Below are positions 26,839 through 27,105 of a DNA stretch of 64,000 nt, in pieces (the stretch's first letter is position 1; the number at the start of each line of letters is the position of its first letter). The position numbers were made by a program, and so were the translations under genes. The notes below the pieces were generated by a model that searched no databases, had not been told where the DNA came from, and saw only the letters and a program-made list of their open reading frames with translations. Source of the stretch: Pimelobacter simplex (GTDB taxonomy: Bacteria; Actinomycetota; Actinomycetes; Propionibacteriales; Nocardioidaceae); the NCBI RefSeq assembly GCF_024662235.1, contig NZ_CP096276.1, forward strand, positions 682,001 through 746,000, read 5' to 3'.

Positions 26839-27105
26839 ATGACAGAACAGCCGTTGGAGCCGATCGAGGACGAGCTGCGCGCCGTGCGCGAATACATCCA
26901 CACGCTCATGTGGCGGAAGGGCATCAGTCAGGCCGTCATGGCGCAGGCGGTGGGTGTCGACCAGTCGACGCTGTCCAAGAAGTTGCGCGGTCGCGTGGGA
27001 CTCCGGCTTGACGAGCTATACGCAATCGGCCGGGTCCTCGGTGAGGACCCGGCCGATCTGTTGCGGTACGCCATCAGGGACTCGAACCCCGAACCCGCTG
27101 ATTAA
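26839..27105 (+). CDS. C1-type phage repressor, integrated (truncated) form
   Basis: An 88-aa helix-turn-helix protein (WRKGISQAVMAQAVGVDQST, then LSKKLRGRVGLRLDELYAIG, residues ~26-72). The last 13 residues, YAIRDSNPEPAD included, are encoded by the attachment core; the TAA stop uses one core base and two bases of the host tRNA anticodon loop. In the excised phage the frame would continue 27 codons to give a 115-aa form. Divergent from excisionase with two operators in between. Confidence 0.82.
   Translation: MTEQPLEPIEDELRAVREYIHTLMWRKGISQAVMAQAVGVDQSTLSKKLRGRVGLRLDELYAIGRVLGEDPADLLRYAIRDSNPEPAD
27025..27057. terminator. Hairpin inside the repressor gene, positioned as tRNA-Lys terminator
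   Basis: A perfect 15-bp stem (ATCGGCCGGGTCCTC and complement) with a 3-nt loop. On the minus strand it begins 9 bases after the tRNA-Lys 3' end, mirroring the spacing of the host hairpin at attL. It also encodes repressor residues IGRVLGEDPAD. No U-run follows, as is usual for high-GC terminators. Confidence 0.55.
27065..27103. repeat. attR core (39 bp)
   Basis: Identical to 11339-11377. It completes the 3' half of the tRNA-Lys gene, so the tRNA is restored by integration. Crossover lies between the anticodon stem and the 3' end, usual for tyrosine integrases. Confidence 0.93.

Follow-up and report, generated by a model that had tools for sequence, protein, structure and literature searches.

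The window analyzed here, 64,000 nt of Pimelobacter simplex DNA (contig NZ_CP096276.1, positions 682,001 to 746,000), very probably carries a small siphovirus-like prophage with a module for integration-dependent immunity (IDI), in which integration truncates the repressor, a C-terminal tail would keep the free-phage form off, and the rebuilt tRNA gene would receive a replacement terminator. Judged from its gene layout, the system itself belongs to the already known IDI class, and insertion into the chromosome probably shortens the repressor and thereby switches immunity on. IDI had been proposed for this element in the initial annotation, and this reading is now backed by the Gordonia IDI phages, by 28 attP-spanning repressors, and by two sister prophages.

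The prophage is 15.7 kb long and is flanked by an exact 39-bp repeat (11339-11377 = 27065-27103). Beyond the repeat, a single mismatch (11378 C/27104 A) is followed by four further identical bases. The ends are as follows.

11339 to 11377, no strand: attL copy of the 39-bp core, the 3' part of tRNA-Lys (from the sequence)
27065 to 27103, no strand: attR copy of the 39-bp core (from the sequence)
27065 to 27139, minus strand: host tRNA-Lys(CTT) with a phage-supplied 3' part, oriented toward the repressor (tRNA call and genome search)

The 3' portion of this tRNA-Lys(CTT) gene makes up the core. No further full close copy of the gene turned up in the 6.26-Mb genome at E ≤ 1e-5, where the matches were the attL fragment and two tRNAs that align in part, at 77-80%. 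The mismatch beside the core is the third anticodon base, and because a tRNA for Lys requires the host base there, we place the exchange to its left. Both the tRNA identity of the core and the hairpin adjoining it (described below) were absent from the initial annotation. Among the other loci that we collected, the ends of prophages G141 (L242) and G420 (L262) share a tRNA repeat of 74-75 nt, as if the whole tRNA gene had been duplicated, and on the IMG/VR contig L022/L087 ARAGORN called a complete tRNA-Thr inside the stretch from repressor to integrase.

The repressor and the genes that would follow it in the excised form lie at opposite ends of the prophage.

26839 to 27105, plus strand: repressor, prophage form, 88 aa (HTH_26, 1.9e-10; phrog_4583, 1e-11)
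11377 to 11460, plus strand: repressor tail of 27 codons and a TGA, ending RGRVVAS, joined to the repressor in the excised form only (in silico join)
11457 to 11612, plus strand: small ORF, 51 aa, whose GTG overlaps the tail TGA (from the sequence; no Pfam match at E 0.01)
11609 to 11770, plus strand: small ORF, 53 aa, with a hydrophobic N-terminal part, whose ATG overlaps the preceding TGA (no Pfam match at E 0.01)
11796 to 12608, plus strand: tyrosine integrase, 270 aa (PF00589, 1.7e-12; weak SAM-like match from residue 8)

A stop codon at the junction truncates the repressor C-terminally in the prophage. Its C-terminal end within the core reads YAIRDSNPEPAD, and its TAA (27103-27105) takes the T from the core and the AA from the host, these last two bases being the complements of anticodon bases 36 and 35 of tRNA-Lys. 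The previously described 88-aa frame, ending inside the 39-bp core with a stop of one core base and two host bases, was base-exact on re-reading. The HTH domain occupies residues 22-77, so it is complete in the 88-aa protein. No PDB relative of the repressor was found at E 0.01, and two database proteins, 58-59% identical to it, terminate exactly as the prophage form does.

Joining the core to 11378 in silico, as in the excised circle, places the attP core inside the repressor coding sequence and extends the repressor to 115 aa, with its TGA at 11458-11460 and a tail end that reads GVVVELDAWRGRVVAS. This reproduces the 27 additional codons reported before. The overlap of the tail TGA with the GTG of a small ORF, which in turn overlaps a second ORF followed by the integrase, was likewise confirmed in the sequence, and in this in silico attP the integrase is downstream of the repressor. 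At 270 aa the integrase is too short for an N-terminal arm-binding domain and is predicted to be armless; passages of PMC9635641 and PMC6109161 name an armless tyrosine integrase as a feature of IDI. Its closest phage homologs are those of Gordonia phages EricDab and SallySpecial (48.8% identity). The window integrase has the C terminus RDVS, not -AA, and a section of PMC8092301 treats an -AA end of the integrase as typical and not required (it is absent in MabC, MabK, MabN, MabO, and MabH). The integrase of prophage G347 (L077) ends in RLAS.

Between the repressor and the virion genes lies a predicted control region.

26524 to 26736, minus strand: excisionase/Cro-like HTH protein, divergent from the repressor (HTH_17, 2.8e-14; phrog_66, 4e-12)
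26748 to 26764, no strand: operator-like palindrome 1, 17 bp (pattern search)
26791 to 26807, no strand: operator-like palindrome 2, 17 bp, 43 bp from palindrome 1 (pattern search)
26826 to 26831, plus strand: TACAGT, candidate -10 box 7 nt 5' of the repressor ATG (from the sequence; putative function)
12972 to 25093, minus strand: virion genes, with portal, prohead protease-containing ORF, large terminase, and unassigned ORFs (domain and family matches)

The divergent Cro/Xis-like gene adjoins the repressor, as in IDI systems. The two palindromes between them are putative operators; with at most two mismatches, the pattern, which was derived from the two sites themselves, matched only these sites in the window, and 0.18 matches are expected per shuffle. 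The position of the TACAGT box suggests that the repressor mRNA may be leaderless, and TACAGT and TACTCT occur at similar positions in the sister prophages G238 and G347. Among the virion genes, the 659-aa ORF at 19655-21634 (minus strand) has a prohead protease domain at residues 33-178, and the rest of it may be capsid protein, making it a protease-capsid fusion. Elsewhere in the same genome there is a second repressor-like HTH frame (L046/L083, G000:C1:2138570; 39-40% identical), with no tRNA listed within the surrounding 20 kb.

We then compared this layout with its relatives. Two sister prophages of the same genus, G238 and G347, are located at tRNA-Asn, and rebuilding them in silico gave an identical layout. 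Their repressors are 43 and 42% identical, respectively, to that of the window in the HTH part, and the joined tails are NVVSLAARRVGRAS in G238, ending GRAS, and ADVIDLIEWRERRAS in G347, ending RRAS. In all three prophages, the tail stop overlaps the following start codon.

The phages with the nearest integrases are eight small Gordonia phages of CW type (15.9-17.7 kb), in which an attP-like core lies inside the repressor and the repressor frame runs through the tRNA core in every case. Cluster CW is stated for McGonagall, GMA5, and GRU3 in a portion of PMC5559632, and we grouped the other five (EricDab, SallySpecial, Emperor, Rahul, and Coeur) with them by integrase. The core is read as CAIRDSNPEPAD, the frame used in the window, in six of the eight (EricDab, McGonagall, SallySpecial, Emperor, GRU3, and GMA5) and in a different frame in Rahul and Coeur. 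That portion of PMC5559632 also describes McGonagall, Jeanie, GMA5, and GRU3 as IDI phages with a tRNA-Lys attB, the same tRNA type as in the window, and places a gene between integrase and repressor in GMA5. The eight integrases are 42.7-48.8% identical to that of the window, and none of the eight phages is among our 16 repressor matches. They differ from the window in their endings, since the repressor tail ends in AA in all eight and the integrase in AA (five) or VA (three), whereas the window has AS and RDVS. They also differ in having a gap after the repressor in seven of eight; the GMA5 repressor overlaps the next gene. GMA5 (L075) and McGonagall (L008) have unlike repressor HTH heads on a similar stretch of hairpin and core, which suggests that the head alone may have been exchanged.

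Mycobacteriophage IDI systems (BPs, Brujita, and Charlie) resemble the window in having attP in the 3' end of the repressor gene, a shorter prophage form, and the integrase downstream, and differ in having other repressors, with tails ending in AA in Brujita and Charlie. The IDI module was not seen in the stretch of Giles that we inspected. Bifidobacterium prophages Bb423phi2 and 689b-1, for which IDI was likewise rebuilt in silico from the prophage, are likened to cluster CW phages in a passage of PMC6109161. Rhodococcus phage RRH1 and Arthrobacter phages Maggie and Decurro resemble the window prophage in their large terminases (35-36% identical) and genome sizes (14-16 kb), and differ in that RRH1 and Maggie seem to be lytic according to part of PMC5559632.

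The top-ranked phage repressor match, Pipp (35%), has a frame that crosses a tRNA-like core and ends in AAA. We inspected 5 of the 16 repressor matches for homologs whose repressor ends well before the core, an arrangement that would have spoken against the earlier reading; Pipp, Dogfish, Bunker, and IdentityCrisis cross a core. WinkNick (31.7%) has a different layout, with the integrase annotated on the opposite strand and on the other side. The 16 matches also include Streptococcus and HannahD/GEazy records. Contig scans of genomes, queried with an alignment of repressors or a shortened relative, and two viral scans gave zero confirmed relatives, and the integrase scan succeeded in finding related loci (72 viral loci). 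Altogether, we retained 28 nonredundant contiguous repressors, taken from deposited or IMG/VR records, whose frame crosses a core antisense to a tRNA. The core was recognized by the motif TCGAAC, and the set shows recurrence and not frequency, as loci without such a frame were excluded. The set consists of the eight small Gordonia phages and Pipp, six further records, and three plus ten loci from other scans.

The tail scan behind these counts covered 56 of the 72 viral loci and nine phage loci; the other 16 viral loci have the integrase at one end or contain it in part, and 13 of them were inspected. We dropped loci without a repressor-like frame over TCGAAC, L134 (whose frame is not repressor-like), and, as copies, L093 and L100 (of GRU3 and GMA5), L028, and L022 (contig of L087). 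Left uncounted were L026 (ends VAS, no core), L027 (no core), L016 and L017 (short copies of G278 and G164), and remnant tails without a repressor (L055/G364, ending RRAA, and L089, ending PAA); the tail counts also omit WinkNick, Giles, L082, L084, L201, L202, and L203. Among 21 further prophage loci, G430, G215, G525, and G512 were spurious or without a repressor, and the core was not found in G247, G211, G261, G229, G521, G108, G253, G536, and G304. G420 and G141, with the 74-75-nt repeat, enter the hairpin count only. The join of G164 is doubtful, given two cores 5.5 kb apart and no integrase found next to the core.

Among the 28 contiguous repressors, 24 end in AA, two in AS (L086 and L137), and two otherwise (L087 and L152). 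The 11 repressors rebuilt from prophages end in AS (the window, G238, G347, and G278), AA (G197, G030, and G048), VA (G426 and G519), VS (G367), and GP (G164, with the doubtful join). Over all 39 forms, 27 end in AA and six in AS, which makes up 6 of the 12 non-AA endings. The window tail had been described as lacking the classical AA, and this holds: it ends in VVAS, a minority ending (6/39). We ruled out an AS ending specific to the order, as G197, G030, and G048 end in AA. The host tmRNA tag ends in FALAA, as it does in six of six genomes with a readable tag, and the AS tail of the window is thus not a plain ssrA mimic.

These endings bear on how the tail acts. It is possible, if rather doubtful, that the IDI layout is correct and the tail is no degron, and that it instead blocks oligomers or DNA binding, or that -AS gives a slow switch with a partly active free-phage repressor. 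The AS ending in place of AA is consistent with such a role, as are the non-AA IDI tails already published for Mycobacterium abscessus prophages, which a section of PMC8092301 ascribes to other, unnamed signals. In BPs, by contrast, the repressor forms bind DNA alike and degradation accounts for the inactivity of the long one, according to passages of PMC4557955. Compared with coding-like ORFs in fetched DNA, of which 13 of 515 end in AS (9 of 186 among those whose stop overlaps or abuts a start codon; these sets may contain some of the tails themselves), the excess of AS among the non-AA tails hints at a shared signal, with the limit that the six are not independent, since the window, G238, and G347 share ancestry.

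The part of the system that could be new, and that could apply to many known IDI phages, is the hairpin beside the tRNA end.

27025 to 27057, minus strand: perfect 15-bp hairpin with a 3-nt loop, within repressor codons and 7 nt past the tRNA 3' end, proposed as the replacement terminator (folding)
11292 to 11331, minus strand: native terminator-like hairpin of tRNA-Lys with 18-bp arms, left at attL 7 nt from the tRNA fragment (best fold, -40.9 kcal/mol)

The best folds of the phage-side hairpin were -33.3 to -34.5 kcal/mol in 44-nt windows and -36.2 kcal/mol in a 50-nt window. By comparison, 200 random 110-nt stretches of the analyzed DNA had a mean of -22.1 kcal/mol, and 0.5% of them reached -33 kcal/mol. 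A hairpin of ≤-25 kcal/mol was found within 110 nt of the 3' end for 12 of 18 other tRNA calls in fetched same-order DNA, a few of which are possibly false calls.

To test the hairpin, we shuffled synonymous codons gene by gene at 41 IDI loci (the 28 plus 13 prophages, unselected for a hairpin), with the first 110 nt of the same repressor stretches as the control (n = 40, G278 being without a control value). For most IMG/VR loci, this test took the preceding stop codon as the gene start; of long prophage frames, roughly the final 100 codons were used; and test and control stretches share a few bases in the shortest genes. The hairpin was significant at p ≤ 0.05 in 27 of 41 loci versus 1 of 40 controls and at p ≤ 0.01 in 17 of 41 versus 0 of 40, and a fold of ≤-25 kcal/mol was reached in 23 of 41 versus 0 of 40. 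The 27 significant loci form 11 flank families by blastn, and since one family has 15 members, they should not be counted as 27 separate cases. The test failed in the other 14 (L086, L087, L110, L121, L133, L137, L023, L025, Brujita, IdentityCrisis, Bunker, G367, G519, and G278). All eight CW-type Gordonia phages have the hairpin before the core at p ≤ 0.05, and it is also significant in Charlie, where 39 nt separate it from the tRNA end. Of the 13 prophages, 9 (the window, G238, G347, G164, G197, G030, G048, G426, and G420) had a hairpin of ≤-25 kcal/mol in the phage-side flank as well as in the displaced native one; G278, G519, G367, and G141 reached -25 kcal/mol on neither side.

We consider it unlikely that the hairpin is not a terminator and instead either serves as a DNA palindrome bound by the integrase, excisionase, or repressor or results from GC-rich codon use. 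Such readings would fit its lack of a T-run: a scan demanding one found nothing at the phage-side hairpin and nothing at the native hairpin, the single site reported in the latter case being unrelated. They would also fit the absence of a significant strand preference in the full set of 41, in which 23 loci had the lower energy on the tRNA strand and 14 the higher (p = 0.14). For the 27 loci selected as significant, these numbers are 20 and 5, an outcome that the selection itself favors; the control stretches lean the opposite way (14 lower, 25 higher; p = 0.04). Against these readings, the synonymous shuffles disfavor a by-product of codon use, the significant loci are spread over 11 flank families, and the 7-nt spacing to the tRNA end is identical to that of the native hairpin. 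G-U pairs on the tRNA strand (e.g., in Rahul, Emperor, and L117) fit a DNA palindrome less well, with the limit that the choice of window there favors the tRNA strand.

The word "terminator" is absent from the main texts of PMC4557955, PMC10865867, PMC9934374, PMC8092301, PMC5559632, PMC6109161, and PMC9635641. In the same IDI-related main texts "hairpin" occurs once, for a DNA loop in another sense. A literature search by title or abstract start gave no matching paper on terminators at tRNA attachment sites.

The openness of the tail frame by itself is weak evidence, because 75.5% of sampled plus-strand positions in the window are equally open for at least 27 codons. More telling are the stop/start overlap, the comparative data, and the GC content of the tail by codon position, which is coding-like (85/48/78% versus 71/39/84% in the repressor body). 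That the repressor ends in the tRNA core by accident, with the longer frame due to chance in GC-rich DNA and immunity independent of integration, is very improbable: the frequency of open frames and the HTH domain already within the 88-aa protein would allow it, but the sister prophages and 28 contiguous phage and contig records have attP-spanning frames, 24 of the 28 ending in AA, and in the window prophage as in G238 and G347 the tail stop overlaps the start codon that follows.

Integration-dependent immunity would work in this prophage as follows. The excised circle would carry the 115-aa repressor, the two small ORFs, and the integrase contiguously, with starts overlapping up to the second small ORF. 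Integration trims the repressor to 88 aa, with host anticodon bases of the tRNA gene completing its stop codon, and at the same time separates the integrase from the repressor promoter and restores tRNA-Lys. The 27-residue tail with its VVAS end may target the free-phage repressor for proteolysis or otherwise inactivate it, and stable immunity would then begin only after integration. For the rebuilt tRNA gene, the native terminator-like hairpin is left behind at attL, and the new one lies antisense in the last repressor codons before the core. There it may terminate the tRNA transcript and block antisense transcription from the tRNA promoter through the repressor gene.

On balance, we favor a broader view drawn from these comparisons, in which IDI repressor genes would be triple-use DNA, with the opposite strand encoding a replacement tRNA terminator beside the attP core. 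Integration would rebuild the tRNA, the terminator, and a stable repressor at once and would shield the repressor from antisense transcription, and a secondary class of -AS tails would replace the -AA degron.

These findings extend the IDI switch to a further actinobacterial lineage, with close prophage relatives for comparison, and describe a recurrent RNA-like element inside repressor genes, of which we found no mention in the IDI papers searched. If the hairpin is a terminator, it would explain how a repressor gene aimed head-on into a highly transcribed tRNA gene survives. It would also be a sequence mark for IDI prophages and could guide the choice of attP in integration vectors that keep the tRNA unit whole.
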